Positions 1,131 to 25,800 of a stretch of DNA of 36,026 nucleotides are shown piece after piece (positions within the stretch are counted from its first letter, which is position 1; every line of letters starts with the position of its first letter). The stretch lies in contig JAFYFJ010000020.1 of NCBI GenBank assembly GCA_017543835.1, positions 1 to 36,026 on the forward strand, read 5' to 3'. Below the pieces are notes generated by a model that worked only from the letters and a program-made list of their open reading frames with translations, made no database searches and had not been told where the DNA came from. Made by a program: the position numbers and the translations under genes. This DNA is from Alphaproteobacteria bacterium (lineage in GTDB: Bacteria; Pseudomonadota; Alphaproteobacteria; RF32; CAG-239).

Positions 1131-3338
1131 ATGGCAAACGACCGCGGTGAAGAATATAAAGAATATGACAAAGCTGTCCGTTGGATGATGATTACTTTCA
1201 TTATCTGTCTTGTCCTGACGATTTTGCTGTTTATTTTTTCGTTGCCTTTATCATATTTGGTTGGGCACGGTATTTCTAAATCTTCAACGGCAGTCGTGAA
1301 TAAATTTTTGGCCCTGATTGTCAGCAATCCGGATCACCTTTTTGATATGTATGGAAAATGGTCGCATCAACTATGGAATCATCACGGCGGTTTTTCGCTC
1401 AGTTTGTGGATTCCGGCGTTACCGTTTATCACGATTCCGCTCGGTTTGATTATCAGCGCGATTTTCTGCCCGTATAAGTTTCAAGTCAATTATCAAGGTC
1501 AGGCAAAAATCGCTGATTTACGAGACATTAAACATATGCCGCTGCTGGGCTTTGATGGTTTTTGCCAAGTTGTCGGCAAGTTTGACGGCAAGTTCCTCAA
1601 ATTAAAAGAAACACTCGCCACATTATGCTGCGCACCTCCGGGAACCGGTAAAACCGCCGGCGTGGTGATTCCGACGATTTTCAATTCCGAACGCTTGAGT
1701 ATTGTGGTGAACGACCCGAAGCCGGAACTTTGTTACAGCACATCCGGTGCGCGTGCCAAAGTCGGACCGGTGTTTATCATTAACTGGGGTGCGGAAGATA
1801 ATCCGAGCGAAGGTATTTATTATCCGAGTTGGAATCCGTTGTCGCCGAACTGTATTCCGGAGCAAGGACCGGACCGCGATATGTATGTTGACTCTATGTG
1901 CAATATTTTGGTGGAAGACCCGAAAGGCGGCGCTGACCCGCACTGGTCGCAAACCGGTCGTGCGGCATTAACCGGCTTTATTCAATATATGGTGTCCAAA
2001 TGTGACCGCGCCCGCGCCAACGACTATTTTATCGGCCGTATTTATGAGGGCAAACTTGACGAGAAAGATAAGGAAGTTCTCGAGGGCTATTATATGGATA
2101 TGCGCGACCCGGGTGTTCAGCGTGCCTTACAAAACCTCAAAAACGGCACATTGACAATGGAAAATTATCTGCCAATCGGCACGTGGAACTTGTTGCCGTC
2201 GCGGTGGATGGGACGTGAAGCGTGTATCGCTATGATTATGGAGTGGATGACCGAAGCGCAAATCAACGCCGCCCACGAAATTCAACGCCGTTTGGACGAA
2301 GGCGACCAGATGGCGGCGATGGCTGACCCGACGCATGATATGCTTGAAGAAGCCATTAAAGAAGCGCGCACCTACGGCTATGCGCAACGTTGCGTGACCG
2401 AACTCAGCACACTCAGCAATACGCCGGATAAAGAGCGCGGCTCTATTATGTCGACCGCTTTTGCCGGTATTAACGTGTTCAAAAACCAAGCGGTGAAGGC
2501 GCGCACCAGTTTTTCGGATTTGCAATTTAAAGATTTGCGCGGTATGAAAGACCCGGTTACGGGCGAGTGGAAACCGATTTCGGTGTATCTGTCGGTTAAC
2601 CAGGTTGATGCGCGTGCGTTGGGCGTTATCAGCTCAACCTTTATTGAATTGATGAGCTCTTATCTGATTTCTAATCCGCCGAATCACGTCAACCGCACCG
2701 ACGGCAAAATGGGGCCGTTCCCTGCTTTGTTTATTCTCGACGAGTTTCCGCAAATGCCGAAGATGAAGGCGATTATTGACGGACCGGCGGTTGGTCGTGG
2801 GCAGAAAGTGTCGTATCTCTTAATCGGACAAGACTTGGGACAAATCTCGGGTAAATACGGTAAAGACGACCTTGAAACCGTGATTTCCACAACCGCTTGC
2901 AAAGTTATTCTGTCGCAAAACAACGAAGTAACGGCGCAACGTTTCTCGAAGATGATTGGTAACAAAACGGTGCGTATTTCTTCGTTCTCGCGAACGGAAG
3001 GCAGCTTGGGTAAAGACTTTAACCCGCTCGCTAAAAATGTGAACTATCAATTGCAAGGTATTCCGGTTATCAGCTCAACGCAACTCTTGAGTTTGCCGAT
3101 GCTCAAACAGGTAGTGCTGATGCAAAGTCATATCGACCGTCCGATTATTGCCGATTCGCCGCGTTATTATTTGGATAAAACAATGCTCAAATTATCTAAG
3201 CTTCCGCCGTGTCCGAATGTGCCGGATTGGATTGTGGCACAACGTGAAGATATTAATGACGATATGTTGGCGAAACTCGGTATTGAATACAACGCCGAAG
3301 AAGATGAAACTTTTGAGGCGGATACACCGCAGGCATAA
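1131..3338 (+). CDS. virD4: Type IV secretion coupling ATPase, VirD4/TraG family
   Basis: VirD4/TraG proteins are inner-membrane hexameric ATPases that pass substrates to a type IV secretion channel. This 735-residue protein has the expected order: two N-terminal membrane segments (about 17-44 and 88-115), a Walker A motif APPGTGKT near 168-175, a long central helical insertion (about 270-430) corresponding to the all-alpha domain, and a Walker B LFILDEFPQMP near 533-543 in the typical T4CP form. The C-terminal tail is acidic, as in coupling proteins that bind substrates or chaperones there. AGAGGG precedes the ATG. It is the last gene of its unit: a rho-independent terminator follows the stop by about 20 nt. 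No other virB-type gene is in the window, so the rest of the machine should lie to the left. The family assignment is firm; protein versus DNA substrate cannot be told. Confidence 0.93.
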   Translation: MANDRGEEYKEYDKAVRWMMITFIICLVLTILLFIFSLPLSYLVGHGISKSSTAVVNKFLALIVSNPDHLFDMYGKWSHQLWNHHGGFSLSLWIPALPFITIPLGLIISAIFCPYKFQVNYQGQAKIADLRDIKHMPLLGFDGFCQVVGKFDGKFLKLKETLATLCCAPPGTGKTAGVVIPTIFNSERLSIVVNDPKPELCYSTSGARAKVGPVFIINWGAEDNPSEGIYYPSWNPLSPNCIPEQGPDRDMYVDSMCNILVEDPKGGADPHWSQTGRAALTGFIQYMVSKCDRARANDYFIGRIYEGKLDEKDKEVLEGYYMDMRDPGVQRALQNLKNGTLTMENYLPIGTWNLLPSRWMGREACIAMIMEWMTEAQINAAHEIQRRLDEGDQMAAMADPTHDMLEEAIKEARTYGYAQRCVTELSTLSNTPDKERGSIMSTAFAGINVFKNQAVKARTSFSDLQFKDLRGMKDPVTGEWKPISVYLSVNQVDARALGVISSTFIELMSSYLISNPPNHVNRTDGKMGPFPALFILDEFPQMPKMKAIIDGPAVGRGQKVSYLLIGQDLGQISGKYGKDDLETVISTTACKVILSQNNEVTAQRFSKMIGNKTVRISSFSRTEGSLGKDFNPLAKNVNYQLQGIPVISSTQLLSLPMLKQVVLMQSHIDRPIIADSPRYYLDKTMLKLSKLPPCPNVPDWIVAQREDINDDMLAKLGIEYNAEEDETFEADTPQA

Positions 3339-3359
3339 AACAACGCATATTTATTGCCC

Positions 3360-3387
3360 AAAAGACCTCCTTTGCGGAGGTTTTTTT
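3360..3387 (+). terminator. Rho-independent terminator after virD4
   Basis: A perfect 6-bp stem, ACCTCC with GGAGGT, closes a 5-nt loop TTTGC and is followed by seven T. An A-run precedes the stem. It separates the secretion unit from rpoH. Confidence 0.88.
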
Positions 3388-3417
3388 GTGTCTGTATGAT
3401 TAGAACTAAAGTATAGG

Positions 3418-3446
3418 TTGCCGCGTGGCGAGCCGACGGTTATTAT
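3418..3446 (+). promoter_or_regulatory. Putative sigma-70 type promoter of rpoH
   Basis: TTGCCG at 3418-3423 and TATTAT at 3441-3446 are separated by 17 nt, about 30 nt before the rpoH start and directly after the preceding terminator. The position is right and the match is good, but it was judged by eye only. Confidence 0.45.
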
Positions 3447-3476
3447 TGCCAAAGTCAAACAACAGGAGGGAAAAGT

Positions 3477-4349
3477 ATGGAAACTGCTCTTACCGAACTG
3501 GACTTTACGCCCGACGCCAATATGTCGCGCTATTTGCAAAATATCCGCCGCTACCCGCTTTTGTCGCAAGAGGAAGAATACGAACTGGCGGTGCAATATA
3601 AACAAACTCAAAACAAAGAACTTGCCTATAAGCTGATTACTTCGCATTTGCGTTTGGTAACCAAGGTTGTGGCAAAATACAAAGGATACGGCTTGCCGAT
3701 GAGCGAAATGATTGCCGAGGGAAACATCGGTCTGATTTATGCCGTCAACAAATTCGAGCCGGACAAGGGCTTTCGTTTTTCGACATACGCGCTATGGTGG
3801 ATTAAGGCGGCGGTGCAAAAATATATCTTGAATTCGTGGTCGCTCGTAAAATTGGGAACAACGGCGGCGCAGAAAAAGCTGTTTTTTAATTTGCGCAAAA
3901 TCAAAAATAATCTGAATTTGACCGATGACCGCGAGCTTTCGTGCGATGTGCTGCAGGAAATTGCCGATTCGCTCGACGTGAGCGTGCAAGAAGTGACGGA
4001 TATGAATACACGGCTCAAAGCGCACGACGGCTCGCTTAATGTGATGATTGACGGGCAGAGCGGGGACGGCGGTGCCGAGTGGATAGATTTTATTTACGAC
4101 AGCAAGCCCAATCAGGAAGAACAGCTCGTTTATCGCGAAACAATGAGTCGACGGCGACAGCTGTTTCATCAGGCAATCACGGTTTTAAACCCGCGCGAAA
4201 AAGATATTTTGTATAAGCGCCGGATGAGCGAAGAAACGATAACGCTCGATGATTTGAGCCGCACTTATAACATTTCAAAAGAACGGGTGCGACAAATCGA
4301 ATTAAACTCGATTCGCAAAATTTCAAAAGCAATTGAACAAATGCAATAG
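3477..4349 (+). CDS. rpoH: RNA polymerase sigma-32 factor RpoH
   Basis: This is the alternative sigma factor that directs RNA polymerase to heat-shock promoters. The 290-residue length is typical. Region 2 (about 50-125) contains the conserved helices for core binding and -10 recognition (FSTYALWWIKAAVQKYI at about 101-117). The RpoH box, QKKLFFNLR at 132-140, is the family hallmark that separates RpoH from RpoD and RpoS. Region 4, a helix-turn-helix ending in SKERVRQIE near 268-276, recognises the -35 element. The start has a strong AGGAGGG ribosome site. It stands alone behind its own probable promoter; the efflux operon begins 62 nt later. Alphaproteobacteria often carry more than one RpoH; whether this is the main copy cannot be told. 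Confidence 0.95.
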   Translation: METALTELDFTPDANMSRYLQNIRRYPLLSQEEEYELAVQYKQTQNKELAYKLITSHLRLVTKVVAKYKGYGLPMSEMIAEGNIGLIYAVNKFEPDKGFRFSTYALWWIKAAVQKYILNSWSLVKLGTTAAQKKLFFNLRKIKNNLNLTDDRELSCDVLQEIADSLDVSVQEVTDMNTRLKAHDGSLNVMIDGQSGDGGAEWIDFIYDSKPNQEEQLVYRETMSRRRQLFHQAITVLNPREKDILYKRRMSEETITLDDLSRTYNISKERVRQIELNSIRKISKAIEQMQ

Positions 4350-16373: not shown

Positions 16374-18110
16374 ATGAACGTTTTTGCCTTTATCTTCAAA
16401 TATTTACGCAAAACAAAAATAATGGCGGGGATTATCCTGTTTTCTTTGATTGCACGCAGTATTTCCGAGCGCGGTGAAGTGTATGCAATGGCGCAGATTA
16501 TCGGCGTTTTGCCGCAATATACAACGGATAACAGTGTTTTAAATACCATCATTTTTTACATTTTCCTTTTGGGGTTGTTTTTGGTGTTTGAGGGTGTGAC
16601 AAACTATGCGTGGCGCTATGTCGGCGGCAAGTTTATGCCGTATTTTTGCAGCTTGGTTTATAAAGATATTTTTGCGGCGGTGCATCATCAGTCGGTCACA
16701 TTTTTTAACGAAGAAATGGCGGGCAAGGTGGCCTCAAAAACAAAAAACATCGTTTCCGGAATTCGCGAAATTTACGGCGCTGTTGTGTTTGGTCTGATTC
16801 GCCCGATTACCGGCATTCTCGTCAGTTTGTTTTTAATCTGCCGTGCCGACTGGCTGATGGGCGGGTGTATTACGGTTTTGAACCTGATTTTTATGGTGGT
16901 TATCATATTTATCCGGCGCAAAATCGGTTCGTTTGCCGAAAAACGAGCGCGGTTTAATGCCGAAACCGACGGCGTATTTATCGATACGGTTACCAATTCC
17001 GATTTGGTTAAGAGTTTTGCCAATTATTTTTATGAAAAAAGCAAGTTTTACCACGTTTTGCGCACGGCTGTCCGCACCGAGCAGGAAGAACGGACTAAAG
17101 ACGCGTGGTTTGATTTGCAAGGCAAAATCGTCTTTTATTCGGTTTATCTGTTGTCTTGTATCAGCGTGTTTTATTGCTGGTATTTGGGGCGTTTGCAACT
17201 GGCGGATGTGGTTATGACAACATCATTGTTGAATGGTCTGATGATGGAAGTCAACAACATCGGCTTTTTTGCCGGCGAATTTGCACAAGATTACGGTCAG
17301 GTCAAAGACGGTTTGGAGCTTGTTTTTCAACCGTATCAAGTGGTTGACGCACCCGACGCGCACAATATCAAAATGCGCGGCAGTTCTATCAATTTTGCCG
17401 ACATAACTTATCATTACAACGGCAAAGAAAATCTGTTTGAAAACTTTAATCTTAAAGTTAAATCGGGCGAAAAAATCGGCTTAGTCGGACATTCCGGCAG
17501 CGGTAAATCGACGCTGATTAAATTGTTGGTGCGCTATTTTGATGTTAACGGCGGCAAAATCACGGTCGGTGGTGAAGATATTGCTAAAGTGCGGCAAAAT
17601 AGTTTGCGCGCGCAAATCGCCGTTATTCCGCAAGATACGACCCTGTTTAACCGCACGATTATGGAGAATATCCGCTACGGCAATGTAAATGCCACCGACG
17701 AAGAGGTTATTCAGGCGGCCAAAGCGGCGTATGCCGATGAGTTTATCGTCAATTTGCCGAAAGGATATGACAGCAAAGTCGGCGAGCGCGGTGTTATGCT
17801 TTCCGGCGGCGAGCGGCAACGGGTGGCAATTGCGCGTGCAATCTTGAAAAACGCGCCGATTCTGATTTTGGACGAGGCCACCTCGGCACTTGACAGTGAA
17901 AGCGAACAATATATTCAAAAATCGCTCAAAAAACTGATGCGCGGCAAAACGGTGATTGCAATTGCGCACCGGCTTTCCACACTCAAAGAAATGGACCGCC
18001 TGATTGTGATGGATAAAGGCAAAATCATAGAAGAAGGCACTCACGATAAGTTGCTGAAAGATAAAGGCGCATATTATCATTTTTACAAAATCCAGAGCTT
18101 GCAAAAATAA
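16374..18110 (+). CDS. ABC exporter half-transporter, MsbA/MdlB-like (fused permease-ATPase)
   Basis: The 578-residue protein has the standard type IV exporter layout: a six-helix membrane domain (about 1-310) with an N-terminal elbow segment, then a nucleotide-binding domain. Walker A is GHSGSGKST near 373-381, the signature motif is LSGGERQR near 476-483, Walker B is ILILDEATSALD near 494-505 and the switch His lies in IAHRLST near 527-533. All catalytic residues are intact, so it should work as a homodimer. Substrates of this class range from lipids to peptides and drugs. The ATG immediately follows the LOG gene stop. It is the last gene of the 12364-18110 run, and the cysteine-rich exported protein begins 88 nt downstream. 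A role in exporting or modifying that protein is possible only by proximity, and a signal peptide on that protein argues against it. Confidence 0.93.
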   Translation: MNVFAFIFKYLRKTKIMAGIILFSLIARSISERGEVYAMAQIIGVLPQYTTDNSVLNTIIFYIFLLGLFLVFEGVTNYAWRYVGGKFMPYFCSLVYKDIFAAVHHQSVTFFNEEMAGKVASKTKNIVSGIREIYGAVVFGLIRPITGILVSLFLICRADWLMGGCITVLNLIFMVVIIFIRRKIGSFAEKRARFNAETDGVFIDTVTNSDLVKSFANYFYEKSKFYHVLRTAVRTEQEERTKDAWFDLQGKIVFYSVYLLSCISVFYCWYLGRLQLADVVMTTSLLNGLMMEVNNIGFFAGEFAQDYGQVKDGLELVFQPYQVVDAPDAHNIKMRGSSINFADITYHYNGKENLFENFNLKVKSGEKIGLVGHSGSGKSTLIKLLVRYFDVNGGKITVGGEDIAKVRQNSLRAQIAVIPQDTTLFNRTIMENIRYGNVNATDEEVIQAAKAAYADEFIVNLPKGYDSKVGERGVMLSGGERQRVAIARAILKNAPILILDEATSALDSESEQYIQKSLKKLMRGKTVIAIAHRLSTLKEMDRLIVMDKGKIIEEGTHDKLLKDKGAYYHFYKIQSLQK

Positions 18111-18172
18111 ATTATTGATAAATTCGCAGATTGTAATAAAATCTTAATACAAAATTGCGATGATATAGCAAA

Positions 18173-18200
18173 TTGACAATACGATATCGAGAAATATTAT
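18173..18200 (+). promoter_or_regulatory. Sigma-70-like elements overlapping the start of the Cys-rich gene
   Basis: A consensus TTGACA at 18173-18178 is followed after 16 nt by TATTAT at 18195-18200, which overlaps the ATG at 18199. Transcription from here would start inside the signal-peptide codons, so it cannot make the full protein from that ATG. It may be fortuitous, or an upstream promoter in the AT-rich gap (for example TTGCGA near 18155) is the real one. The palindrome CGATATCG lies at 18182-18189. Confidence 0.25.
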
Positions 18201-21200
18201 GATGCATGCAAAGAAAACAAAATCCTCTCCGAAATGGCTGAAAACAGCGGCTGTTTGTGCGTTGTTTGCCATAATTGCTTTCCCGTTGGTTTGTTCGGCG
18301 GCATTGTTTCCGTTTGGTAAAAAATCACAATCTTCCGAAGAAAAATGCAATGGCTTCACGATGGATGTGCCGCCGGTCGGTTGCTTTTATCCGTGCGCAA
18401 ATCCGTATAAGCTGAAAAACGGCACACAATGCTGCGCCGATACAAAATGGCGTGCCATGCCGCCGGAATATACTCGACCGGAAAAAAACGATGCATGCTA
18501 TGATACGGACGCGGTTTTGGCCGCCGACGGCGAATATTGTTACAAGCAAACACCGGCCGATACCAATTGTCCGGACGGCTTTGCGTGGAACGATTTTAAT
18601 GCTTCTTACGACAAAGCGCAGAGCTATTGCGCTTGCGTTGCGGTCAGATGTCCGGAGGGTTCAAACACCGAGAAAAAACGCGGGTGCTATACCTATCGCG
18701 ATACCGGTCAAAAATCGGGCAACAACACTTGCTGGATTTCGCTTCCGCTTGATGATAAATGCCCGCAAAACGAAACAAAAAATCCGGCAAAATGCGCGTT
18801 CGGATACACCGAGGGCGAAAAAACGGAATGCGGCACACAATGCTACAAATGCAAAGAGCCGGACGATAATTGCCCGTCGGGACAATCCAAAAACATCGAA
18901 GATTGCTGGTATGGCTATACACACGGCGGCAGAACTCAAGCCGGAAGCCAATGCTATAATTGTAAAGACCCGACCTGCGCCTTTTTTGCGTTGATAGACG
19001 ACTGCCACGACGGTTGCACCGACGGCATCAAAACAACTTGCGTTGCCAAAACGCCGCAAGGCACTCCGTTACAATGCTTTGAAAAAATTACGGAAACCTG
19101 CCCGCAAGGATGTGACGGCAAAAACTGCGCCAGCAAAAAATGCGAAGATTTTGGCTATGTCGACAACTGTGAAACCGGTTGCGTCAACAGCATTCGCATA
19201 ACTTGCGAAGCGCGTGACCCGGGATACGGCCTGCGTTGTTTTGAAAGAATAGAAGAACCGTGCGCTCACGGTTGCGACGGAAACAGTTGCAACATCAGAA
19301 CCTGTGAAAGCGGCGGCTATGTGAAATCTTGCACCGACGGATGTGCCGATAATTACAATACCACCTGCAAGCCGGTAGATTATTACGGTATGCTGTGTTA
19401 TGAAAAACAAACGGAACATTGTGCGCAGGGCTGTTCGCCGGACGGCACGGCTTGTAACCGCAAGAGTTGCGCGGACGGCGGCTATACCGATTCGTGCGGC
19501 GAGGGTTGTGTCGGCAATGTGATGACAAAGTGCACGCCGCAGAGCTATTACGGTTTGAGTTGTTTTGAGAAGCAAACGGAAAAATGCACGCAGGGTTGCA
19601 CCTTCGACGGGTTGGATTGCAATCGCAAAAATTGCGAAGACGGCGGTTATTTCGACACTTGTCAGCAAAAGTGTGCCGGCAATATAAAGACAACCTGCAA
19701 ACGCGTTGATTATTATGGTAAAGTCTGCTACGAAAAGCAAGAAGAAACCTGCACGCAGGGCTGTGCGGACGATGGCTTGACCTGCAACATAAAAGCGTGT
19801 GCGGACGGCGGTTATGTCGAGAGTTGCAAAAAAGGTTGCCGCAACAATGTCGATACGGACTGCAAAGAAGTCGAATATTACGGCCTGACTTGCTACGAGA
19901 AAAAGACGCAAAACTGCAAACAGGGTTGTGCGCCGGATAATGCCAGTTGCAACATCAAAATATGCGCGGACGGCGGCTATGTCGAGCGTTGCGTCGCCGG
20001 TTGCGCCGGAAGCGCCAAAACAACCTGCACCGAGGTTAAATATTACGGCTTGACCTGCTACGACAGACAAGTGGAAAATTGCGCGCAGAGTTGTGCGCCG
20101 GACGGCCAGACCTGTAACGATAAAACCTGCAGCGATTTCTCGGATTCGACCGGCGTGAAACTTACGGATTCCTGCACCGCCGGATGTGCGGATAATACGC
20201 TTATTTCCTGTAAACAGGCGAATCCGGGCTACGGGTTGACTTGCTATTCGCGCACAGCCGTTCAATGCCAAAACGGATGCGCCGAAACCGACGAGTGTAA
20301 TTTGTGTCCGGCGGGCTTTTCAACGGAAAAAACCGGTCAATGCTACGATATGGCGGTGGGTGCCGACAATAAGACGATATGCTATAAAGAAACTCCGTGT
20401 TGTGCAAGCGGCGACAGAACATTTGCGCTTGAAAAACCGTCGCCGGTAACGGGCTACGATATTGTAGAGGCACAGGGTTTGCAAGGCGGCTATTGCTACA
20501 AAGCCAAACCTTGTCCGGAGCCGGAAGAAACATCGTGCGACAATACCAAGTCCGAAACGGAATGCACAATATGCCACGACACCGAGCATTACAGCGGTGC
20601 CACACAATGTCGCCGGATTGCCAAAGTTTCCAACCGTTGTCCGAGCGGTCAGACACACAATGTCTCCGAATGCGCCAACGGCTATGTCTTAGGCAACAAA
20701 ACGGAATGCGGCGAACAATGCTATATTTGCAACTTGTGTCCGGCGGGATTTGTAACACGCACCGGCGCACAATGCTACTACAAAGAAATCGGTGCCGACA
20801 ATAAGACAATGTGCTATCAAAATGTTGAGTGTTGTGCCGATAAAAGCAGAGCATTCTCGATGAGCCGACCGTATCGAGAGCAAGGTTATGATATTGTGGC
20901 GGCGCAGGGCTCACAGGGCGGATATTGCTACAAAGGCAAAGGGTGTCCGGAGCCGGAATCGCTGAATTGCGAACCGGATATTATCGAAACGCAGTGTGTT
21001 GTATGCCATAAAACCGAAAATTACAGCGGGATGAAACAATGCCAAAAGAAAATCATCAAATCGAATGTTTGCAAAGACGGCCAGACCAAAGAAACGCAAA
21101 ATTGCAAATACGGTTATGAACTCGGCGATAAGACGGAATGCGGCGAACAATGCTATACCTGTAAAGTTTGCCCGAGCGGATATTCGACCGGCTCAAAGGG

Positions 21201-21378
21201 TAACTGCTATGAGGTTGAAATCGGGGCGGATGGTGTCACAAAATGCTATAAAGATGTGAATTGCTGCGCCAACGAAAACAGAGCATTCAGCGCAACAAAA
21301 CCGACACCGGAAGAAAACTTTGAAATTTCGGCGGCGCGGGGCGCTCAGGGCGGTTATTGTTATCAGGTGAAAAAATAA
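18199..21378 (+). CDS. Exported giant cysteine-rich modular repeat protein, unknown function
   Basis: I do not recognise this family. The 1059-residue product begins with a Lys-rich n-region, a hydrophobic core (about 16-31) and a cleavage site after VCSA (34), so it should be exported by Sec. I count 126 Cys, about 12 percent of residues, 124 of them in the mature part. Four kinds of module are visible: A (Cys-Cys ... GGYCYK), P (CPxGxxT ... CY ... CYK), B (CPSGQ ... GYxxGxKTECGxQCYxC) and C (a 55-residue unit with eight Cys). The order is A-P-B-B, then C eight times, then two complete P-A-B units of 144 residues and a final P-A that ends the protein. Tyr and Gly are common next to Cys; there are few hydrophobic residues. 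It has no membrane anchor, LPXTG-like site or autotransporter barrel. A disulfide-rich surface, cyst-wall-like or adhesive protein is the natural guess, but that is inference only. The ribosome site is weak (GAGAAA). Confidence 0.93.
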   Translation: MMHAKKTKSSPKWLKTAAVCALFAIIAFPLVCSAALFPFGKKSQSSEEKCNGFTMDVPPVGCFYPCANPYKLKNGTQCCADTKWRAMPPEYTRPEKNDACYDTDAVLAADGEYCYKQTPADTNCPDGFAWNDFNASYDKAQSYCACVAVRCPEGSNTEKKRGCYTYRDTGQKSGNNTCWISLPLDDKCPQNETKNPAKCAFGYTEGEKTECGTQCYKCKEPDDNCPSGQSKNIEDCWYGYTHGGRTQAGSQCYNCKDPTCAFFALIDDCHDGCTDGIKTTCVAKTPQGTPLQCFEKITETCPQGCDGKNCASKKCEDFGYVDNCETGCVNSIRITCEARDPGYGLRCFERIEEPCAHGCDGNSCNIRTCESGGYVKSCTDGCADNYNTTCKPVDYYGMLCYEKQTEHCAQGCSPDGTACNRKSCADGGYTDSCGEGCVGNVMTKCTPQSYYGLSCFEKQTEKCTQGCTFDGLDCNRKNCEDGGYFDTCQQKCAGNIKTTCKRVDYYGKVCYEKQEETCTQGCADDGLTCNIKACADGGYVESCKKGCRNNVDTDCKEVEYYGLTCYEKKTQNCKQGCAPDNASCNIKICADGGYVERCVAGCAGSAKTTCTEVKYYGLTCYDRQVENCAQSCAPDGQTCNDKTCSDFSDSTGVKLTDSCTAGCADNTLISCKQANPGYGLTCYSRTAVQCQNGCAETDECNLCPAGFSTEKTGQCYDMAVGADNKTICYKETPCCASGDRTFALEKPSPVTGYDIVEAQGLQGGYCYKAKPCPEPEETSCDNTKSETECTICHDTEHYSGATQCRRIAKVSNRCPSGQTHNVSECANGYVLGNKTECGEQCYICNLCPAGFVTRTGAQCYYKEIGADNKTMCYQNVECCADKSRAFSMSRPYREQGYDIVAAQGSQGGYCYKGKGCPEPESLNCEPDIIETQCVVCHKTENYSGMKQCQKKIIKSNVCKDGQTKETQNCKYGYELGDKTECGEQCYTCKVCPSGYSTGSKGNCYEVEIGADGVTKCYKDVNCCANENRAFSATKPTPEENFEISAARGAQGGYCYQVKK
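18976..20301 (+). repeat. Eight tandem 165-nt coding repeats (8-Cys module)
   Basis: Units begin at the first Cys codon at 18976, 19141, 19303, 19468, 19633, 19798, 19963 and 20128. Spacing is 165 nt throughout except one of 162; the last unit has a small insert and runs to 20301. Each unit encodes Cys at eight fixed positions with the pattern C-x-D-G-G-Y ... S-C-x-x-G-C ... T-T-C ... Y-Y-G-L-x-C-Y-E-K ... C-x-Q-G-C ... C-N-x-K. The outer copies (1, 2, 8) are the most diverged and the central ones (3-7) are most alike, as expected from growth by unequal crossing-over in the centre. Confidence 0.95.
20305..21375 (+). repeat. Two and a half 432-nt coding repeats at the C-terminus of the Cys-rich protein
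   Basis: The CP[AS]G[FY] unit starts at 20305, 20737 and 21169, exactly 432 nt apart. Each full unit encodes 144 residues with 16 Cys; the third stops after 6 Cys, just past its GGYCY motif. The protein thus ends at a module boundary rather than at random. Confidence 0.93.
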
Positions 21379-21381
21379 CGC

Positions 21382-21409
21382 TTGCAAAAAAAGTCAAATG
21401 GCATATATT
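21382..21409 (+). promoter_or_regulatory. Putative sigma-70 promoter of the aldolase gene
   Basis: TTGCAA at 21382-21387 and TATATT at 21404-21409 are separated by 16 nt, 37 nt before the start codon and directly after the preceding stop. Confidence 0.5.
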
Positions 21410-21445
21410 CAACCCAGTTAAATTTTAATTTTTAGGGAGAAAAAT

Positions 21446-22495
21446 ATGCCTTTGGTTTCTATGCGTCAAATTCTTGACCATGCCGCCGAACATAATTATG
21501 GTGTTCCGGCGTTCAACATCAACAATATGGAACAAATTATTGCCGTTATGCAGGCGGCGCAAAAAGTTAATGCTCCGGTGATTATGCAAACATCGACCGG
21601 CGCACGCAAATATGCGGGTGACCCGATGATTCGTCACATGGTTGCGGCCGCAATCGAAATGTTTCCGAATATTCCGGTTTGTATTCACCAAGACCACGGC
21701 ACTTCGGTTGATATTTGTCAATCGGCGATTGTCAACGGCTTTTCTTCGGTCATGATGGATGGTTCTTTGGAAGCAGACGGCAAAACACCGGCTTCTTTTG
21801 AATACAATGTTCGTGTCACGCAAGAAGTTGTTGCTCGCGCTCACGCTGTCGGCGCTTCTGTTGAAGGTGAATTGGGTGTTATCGGCTCGCTCGAAACCGG
21901 TAAGGCAGATAAAGAAGATGGTATCGGTGCCGAGGGCAAACTCGATAAAAAACGCCTCGTGACCGACCCGGACGAAGCGGCTGAATTTGTGGCTTTGACA
22001 CATTTGGACGCATTGGCGGTGGCTGTCGGCACTTCGCACGGCGCATACAAATTTACACGCAAGCCGGACGGTGAGATTTTGGCGATTGATGTGATTGAAA
22101 AAATCCACGCAAAACTGCCGAATACGCACCTTGTGATGCACGGTTCTTCTTCCGTTCCGCAAGAATTGCAAGACCTGATTAACGCTTACGGCGGCCAAAT
22201 TCCGCAAACTTACGGTGTGCCGATGGAAGAAATCGTGCGCGGTATCAAATCGGGCGTGCGTAAAGTCAATGTCGATACCGATTCGCGTATGGCAATTACC
22301 GGTGCAATTCGCAAAATTTTTGCGGAAAAACCGTCGGAATTCGACCCGCGCAAATATCTCAAACCGGCAATTGAAGAAATGCAAAAAGTTTGCGAAGAAC
22401 GTTATATTGCATTCGGTGCGGCCGGTCACGGCGACCAAATCAAAGCGATTAAGCTTTCCGATATGGCAAAACGTTATGCCGCCGGCGAGCTTTAA
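21446..22495 (+). CDS. fba: Class II fructose-1,6-bisphosphate aldolase
   Basis: This zinc-dependent enzyme cleaves fructose 1,6-bisphosphate into dihydroxyacetone phosphate and glyceraldehyde 3-phosphate, and runs in reverse in gluconeogenesis. The 349-residue length fits the class II, Calvin-type/FbaA2 subgroup. Visible motifs are the N-terminal [17 protein letters not shown] at 81-85 with a metal His and the catalytic Asp83, [12 protein letters not shown] with the metal Glu, the GTSHGAYKF loop carrying the second metal His, [10 protein letters not shown] with the third, and NVDTDSRMA for phosphate binding. AGGGAG precedes the ATG. Own promoter and own terminator make it a single-gene unit. 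Codon use looks more optimised than that of its neighbours, as expected for an abundant glycolytic enzyme. Confidence 0.97.
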
Positions 22496-25056: not shown

Positions 25057-25800
25057 TTACATCCTCAATTTAGCCAACCGATTGTCGAGATATTCCTTCA
25101 ACTCCTGATATTTGACCATACCGTAAAAAATCTCGTTTCCGTCGGCACCGCTGAACAAAAAGGCCGGTGTGCCCTGCATTTTAAGACGCGTCACCGCTTC
25201 TTGCCTGTTCGCAATAATTTCGTGTGCCATTGTTTCATCGGCAATACATGACGTCGCTTCGCCGTAGCCGAGACCGTATTCGGCGGCAAAACGGAACAAT
25301 TGATCATTTTCATTATCCATCCACCACGAACGTTGCGTATCAAACAACCGATTCAAAAAGCCGAAATAATTTTCGTATGTCATACATTCGGAAAGCATCG
25401 CCGCTTTCATCGCATTTCGGTCGAGCGGGAAGTTCACAAAAATCACTCGGAGCAAGCCGGTATCAACATAATCGCGCACCAGTTGCGGCATCACATCGAG
25501 ATGAAAATCGGCACAATGCGGGCAGGTCAAAGATGAATATTCATACAATGTCAACGGGGCTTCGGCCGAACCGAGCGCATATTTGGTGGAAACATTCAGC
25601 ACCATATTTTCTTGTAATGTAATCGGTCCGTGTTCGTTGGCTTGAGCCACTTGCTCGTGAAAAATTATCTCAAACTTTTGAGAATTGTTGTTCGGAAACA
25701 CAATTTCAAACCCTTTATAATTAAAATAAAAGGCGCCGGCAACGCAATAAATGAGAATAAGAGATAAAATATTGCTGATTTTTCTGATTATAATTTCCAA
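25057..25800 (-). CDS. DsbA-family thiol:disulfide oxidoreductase
   Basis: DsbA-type proteins introduce or shuffle disulfides in exported proteins. The 247-residue product has an N-terminal hydrophobic signal or anchor (about 10-26), then a thioredoxin fold interrupted by a helical domain. The active site is CPHC at 93-96, the sequence found in E. coli DsbA, and the cis-Pro loop is GTP at 210-212. Two additional cysteines (C139, C185) lie in the helical domain. It follows the DUF721 gene by 4 nt, an arrangement conserved in alphaproteobacteria. It is the only periplasmic thiol enzyme visible in the window, and the cysteine-rich protein at 18199 would be an obvious client, though nothing links them directly. 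Confidence 0.9.
   Translation of the reverse strand: MEIIIRKISNILSLILIYCVAGAFYFNYKGFEIVFPNNNSQKFEIIFHEQVAQANEHGPITLQENMVLNVSTKYALGSAEAPLTLYEYSSLTCPHCADFHLDVMPQLVRDYVDTGLLRVIFVNFPLDRNAMKAAMLSECMTYENYFGFLNRLFDTQRSWWMDNENDQLFRFAAEYGLGYGEATSCIADETMAHEIIANRQEAVTRLKMQGTPAFLFSGADGNEIFYGMVKYQELKEYLDNRLAKLRM

Follow-up and report, generated by a model that had tools for sequence, protein, structure and literature searches.

Within the window, as we call the whole 36,026-nt stretch of DNA analysed here, a single Cys-rich gene occupies the site between an ABC exporter gene and fba (Table 1). Read from ATG to TAA, its ORF encodes a 1059-aa protein containing 126 Cys (11.9%), of which 2 fall within the signal peptide (residues 1-34) and 124 follow it; a sequence-only reading of the same DNA had given about 126 in all and 124 in the mature protein, and these counts proved exact. 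Proteins with more than 100 Cys are rare in bacteria. In a survey that covered 1.18 Mb of the 1.32-Mb genome, taken as stretches, this protein had the highest Cys fraction among 441 ORFs of at least 300 aa, where the median was 1.1% and the 99th percentile 5.4%. A sister species (G021) carries a full-length ortholog of 1057 aa with 79% identity on CAMAJR010000003.1, a contig of an uncultured Alphaproteobacteria MAG, and each of the 126 Cys is matched by a Cys in that ortholog. The dN/dS ratio between the two genes was about 0.11 by NG86 and 0.17 by YN00. The extreme Cys fraction, the complete retention of Cys and the low dN/dS indicate that 18199-21378 is a real gene under purifying selection, neither a chance nor a spurious ORF. 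Searches for RNA families gave no match within the window.

Table 1. Features of the Cys-rich locus (positions are those of the window)
Feature	Position	Strand	Remarks
ABC exporter (ABC_membrane + ABC_tran), left flank	16374..18110	+	Conserved in the genus
Possible σ70-like promoter, TTGATA-16-TAAAAT	18115..18142	+	Consensus match alone
Gene for the 1059-aa protein	18199..21378	+	ATG to TAA
Predicted Sec signal peptide, residues 1-34	18199..18300	+	Likely cleavage VCSA/ALF; sequence reading; kept in the ortholog
N-terminal Cys-rich domain, residues 35-187	18301..18759	+	Resembles parts of other exported Cys-rich proteins
33-aa CYxC module, copy 1	18760..18858	+	Profile A2
33-aa CYxC module, copy 2	18871..18969	+	Profile A2
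Eight tandem 54-59-aa units, eight Cys each, residues 260-702	18976..20304	+	Starts 18976, 19141, 19303, 19468, 19633, 19798, 19963, 20128
144-aa unit, 2.5 copies, residues 700-1059	20296..21375	+	Starts 20296, 20728, 21160
33-aa CYxC module, copy 3	20638..20733	+	Profile A2; inside a 144-aa unit
33-aa CYxC module, copy 4	21070..21168	+	Profile A2; inside a 144-aa unit
fba, presumed fructose-bisphosphate aldolase, right flank	21446..22495	+	Conserved; enzyme name from recognising the sequence
DsbA-like thioredoxin (Thioredoxin_4, CPHC)	25057..25800	-	Candidate oxidant; link to the Cys-rich protein putative

In seven genus-mates the exporter gene and fba adjoin directly, 64-85 bp apart, and in the G021 locus, which covers the left flank, the exporter gene is followed directly by the Cys-rich gene. 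The full 1059-aa-type protein was found in these two genomes alone among the 26 of the genus. Its presence in 2 of 26 genomes, between conserved neighbours, points to a lineage-specific insertion or to loss elsewhere. The same site (window positions 18110-21446) holds greA in one relative (G001) and a truncated greA remnant with another fragment in a second (G003; loci L080 and L083). Both the sporadic presence and these other inserts would suit a horizontally transferred gene that is decaying or only a passenger and lacks a conserved role. By contrast, the low dN/dS and the retention of every Cys disfavour such an origin, and nothing similar to the protein was found in phage, plasmid and IMG/VR viral-contig collections at the sensitivities used, so that we regard a passenger gene as very improbable.

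The protein begins with a basic N-region, a hydrophobic core and an AxA-like site, read as a signal peptide by hand and by a heuristic. The domain that follows matched parts of an ORF of the same genome (L169; 6e-7) and of one in G001 (L224; 3e-7), and the score against L224 exceeded those of all 300 Cys-fixed shuffles. Profile A2, which was seeded in part with the protein's own 33-aa copies, found four 33-aa modules, which end in CYxC (E down to 3e-17). The 144-aa array shares its first three codons with the closing codons of the eighth 55-aa unit. Cys spacing is periodic throughout, repeating 9-4-8-10-8-4-7-5 before passing into a period of 144 residues, and the eight Cys of the 55-aa type are invariant over 12 units from two lineages. 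No nucleotide tandem repeats were detected across the gene, suggesting that the repeats are old at the DNA level. By region the Cys number 22, 64 and 38, every count being even, and the even mature total of 124 is consistent with full disulfide pairing. The protein also holds nine CxxC and four CC motifs. Hydrophobic residues are few, as had been proposed from the letters: AVILMFW make up 18.8% of the protein past residue 35, and the mature GRAVY is -0.71.

Searches of Pfam, NCBIfam and PHROG with the 1059-aa protein gave no family match, so the first impression of an unrecognised family holds. No Pfam profile, the EGF profiles included, matched at E ≤ 10, a search in which the HMMER bias filter can hide Cys-rich matches, and Ephrin_rec_like (PF07699) did not match either. 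PDB-sequence matches to the zinc fingers of Sal-like protein 4 (E about 0.003) covered a Cys-spaced stretch and were judged compositional. AlphaFold2 modelled two tandem 55-aa units from 24 sequences with a pLDDT of 92.4 and a pTM of 0.59, predicting for each unit a short helix and a three-strand antiparallel meander (topology taken from the strand list). Foldseek comparison of this tandem with PDB and BFVD returned no match at E ≤ 0.001, and VIA-align returned one row, with a best Z of 2.2; small disulfide-rich folds are hard for both methods. The model of the 144-aa unit was weaker (pLDDT 74), and the fold search with it gave no significant match, the top hits, to Argos, having E above 0.3 and TM about 0.1. 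The 55-aa unit is a candidate new small disulfide fold. The protein shares with EGF- or laminin-like and Giardia-type proteins a style of tandem small disulfide-type modules with few hydrophobic residues; however, no Pfam or PDB profile, sequence or fold match supported a relation, and the resemblance to EGF, laminin and cyst-wall proteins noted at first sight appears to be one of style.

To place the protein in its lineage, we compared its modules with other genomes. The 55-aa unit profile matched 8 of the 152 genomes of the bacterial family and the 33-aa module profile 42 of them (35 at E ≤ 0.001), often in several ORFs per genome; copies at contig ends suggest that these counts are lower bounds. 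Neither profile matched at E ≤ 0.001 in about 380 genomes of other families of the class. The modules are confined to their own alphaproteobacterial family. The matching ORFs that were read had signal-peptide-like N-termini wherever a start was present, about 5-14% Cys and varied architectures. In four module comparisons the observed score was above the best of 300 Cys-fixed shuffles, which argues for kinship beyond shared Cys content. The window genome itself encodes at least four further exported Cys-rich ORFs, among them the one that resembles the N-terminal domain. With its predicted signal peptide, its Cys-rich modules and its 33-aa module, the 1059-aa protein belongs, as far as its sequence can be read, to a set of exported Cys-rich mosaic proteins. 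The mosaic repertoire found no match in the libraries searched, and the open-access literature yielded no description of such Cys-rich proteins in this lineage. A single locus could not reveal that the protein is part of a family-wide repertoire.

Related proteins vary in what the modules are joined to. A sheep-rumen MAG (G140) encodes a distant relative with eleven 55-aa units and a different C-terminus, its 5′ end cut by the contig; a scan of named genomes with narrow patterns, which was no census, matched this relative and the G021 ortholog alone. In another relative, modules of this kind are combined with a PKD match that lies below the cutoff, and in G016 (L225) Ephrin_rec_like repeats and one 55-aa unit stand in one protein. 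PKD and Ephrin_rec_like are both common in extracellular proteins; the latter is a Cys-rich extracellular repeat that sits beside a 55-aa unit in L225, and its profile does not match the 1059-aa protein. The C-terminal part of the L225 protein (L225:2518-6999, minus strand, G016:C67), 'WWSAYNWCKAQGKNLLSAADYNC...', might be C-type-lectin-like and has no Pfam match.

The diversity of C-terminal ends among related proteins, together with the lineage-specific insertion, would accord with a secreted effector or toxin-like protein acting against competitors, protists or host cells. Nevertheless, the 1059-aa protein consists almost entirely of repeats, searches of Pfam, NCBIfam and PHROG showed neither a catalytic domain nor an effector family in it, and the window offers no secretion-system context for its gene, making this role quite improbable.

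As to a route out of the cell, the window genome showed no type II secretion system dedicated to this task. Its sole secretin match belongs to a cluster resembling a type IVb pilus (L102:4724-13070, minus strand, G000:C99), with an ATPase, an inner-membrane protein and a secretin lipoprotein, the pilus reading being based on gene order. In the 1059-aa protein we recognised neither an anchor or lipobox nor a sorting signal or beta-barrel, and consequently it could stay periplasmic. A lipoprotein reading was rejected, 'FPLVC' not being a lipobox (V/I at -1).

A signature at the N-terminus marks part of the repertoire. Seven proteins of the genus carry the motif [IV]C[FY]LPxGxC shortly after the position at which cleavage is predicted (AxA|x-[IV]C[FY]LPxGxC). 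Profile A6, which represents this 16-residue signature, matched 20 of the 26 genus genomes at E ≤ 0.001 (14 gave no seeds). In the loci inspected (L242-L271) nearly all matches lay directly after a signal-peptide-like segment and ran on into Cys-rich sequence; two were evident chance matches. The signature could conceivably be a sorting or assembly signal. The 1059-aa protein, which has 'ALFPFG' in a similar place, was not matched by profile A6 and therefore lies outside the signature subset, or is at best a degenerate bearer.

DsbA-like thioredoxins were present in all 26 genus genomes, and the window genome has another at G000:C24:8675-9139 in addition to the one listed in Table 1. By contrast, the profiles for DsbB (PF02600) and VKOR (PF07884) matched nothing in the 26 genomes, in which control profiles did match. 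DsbA may have a divergent partner, or the Cys may be oxidised by a different route. The missing DsbB and VKOR matches, like the nine CxxC and four CC motifs, might instead speak for a metal-binding or redox-buffering protein, whose Cys, staying reduced under the anoxic conditions of the gut, would bind metal or scavenge oxidants. However, the predicted export and the DsbA-like proteins in every genus genome argue against reduced Cys, most of the Cys follow the spacing of disulfide modules (C-x8-C-x3-C-x7-C) and not that of CxxC clusters, and the repeat architecture is ordered, with a confidently predicted fold. We consider this function improbable.

Exported Cys-rich proteins are already a known kind in bacteria, exemplified by the chlamydial outer-membrane complex and by the planctomycete YTV-domain cell-wall proteins (PMC8567305). 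OmcB and the other proteins of the chlamydial complex are exported Cys-rich proteins of a Gram-negative bacterium, like the 1059-aa protein; disulfides are central to the complex, and OmcB is reported to be an adhesin. The 1059-aa protein differs in having no Pfam or NCBIfam match, in its tandem repeats and in being confined to its own alphaproteobacterial family. The YTV proteins, described as occurring solely in Planctomycetales, resemble the present repertoire, which probably sits on or outside the cell, as Cys-rich envelope proteins of one bacterial clade (PMC8567305). No YTV-named profile is among the Pfam and NCBIfam matches of the 1059-aa protein, a comparison made at the level of profiles.

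These precedents, the high Cys content, the tandem repeats and the several exported Cys-rich ORFs of the window genome would fit an envelope coat, in which Cys-rich proteins are cross-linked by intermolecular disulfides into a protective outer layer. On the other hand, an essential coat protein would hardly be restricted to two of 26 genus genomes, the even Cys counts (eight per 55-aa unit, and even in each region) favour intramolecular pairing, and no Pfam or NCBIfam match relates the sequence to the described families. A cross-linked coat thus appears unlikely.

Taken together, we favour, with a probability of roughly 55%, the interpretation that the 1059-aa protein is rod-like, stabilised by disulfides and either located at the surface or secreted, serving as an adhesin or in a structural role. 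The Sec pathway would export the modular protein past the inner membrane, and its Cys would pair mostly intramolecularly within the small modules of beta-sheet. A tandem string of such modules may form a rod of about 112 kDa that is stiff and resists proteases. In the gut this rod would act at the cell surface or after release, as an adhesin or as structural material of a coat or stalk. The protein is probably located on or outside the cell. That it is exported by a host-associated alphaproteobacterium, as first suggested, agrees with the signal-peptide-like N-terminus and with the origin of the records from an uncultured gut or rumen lineage. On a wider scale, the bacterial family would shuffle a few Cys-rich modules into an exported mosaic repertoire, of which the 1059-aa protein would be a lineage-specific member. 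More tentatively, these proteins may form a class of their own: exported disulfide-rich mosaics with an undescribed fold, often headed in one genus by the N-terminal signature, which would mark a pathway of their own for sorting or assembly, and oxidised without DsbB or VKOR; we hold this to be possible and rather doubtful.

By shuffling modules, an entire family of uncultured gut bacteria appears to produce many exported proteins rich in Cys, and these mosaics are candidates for what the bacteria show to the gut. They also raise the question of how so many disulfides go together with DsbA-like proteins, no recognisable DsbB or VKOR, and a low-oxygen habitat.

Other ORFs of the window genome have features of their own. 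An exported ORF with 93 Cys (L141:1-3840, minus strand, G000:C36) is Cys-rich and looks ankyrin-like at its N-terminus; it also has a hydrophobic segment, and its long C-terminal part is poor in Cys and cut by the contig end. It perhaps encodes an autotransporter-like protein. A second exported ORF (L209:2-1405, minus strand, G000:C105) repeats CKHGGTQ..KC.CPAGWNGKLC, which looks EGF-like by eye and has no Pfam EGF match. Finally, a 200-aa ORF (L138, about 3244-3844, minus strand, G000:C33) has a Cys/Gly-rich, metallothionein-like N-terminal part followed by a hydrophobic segment.
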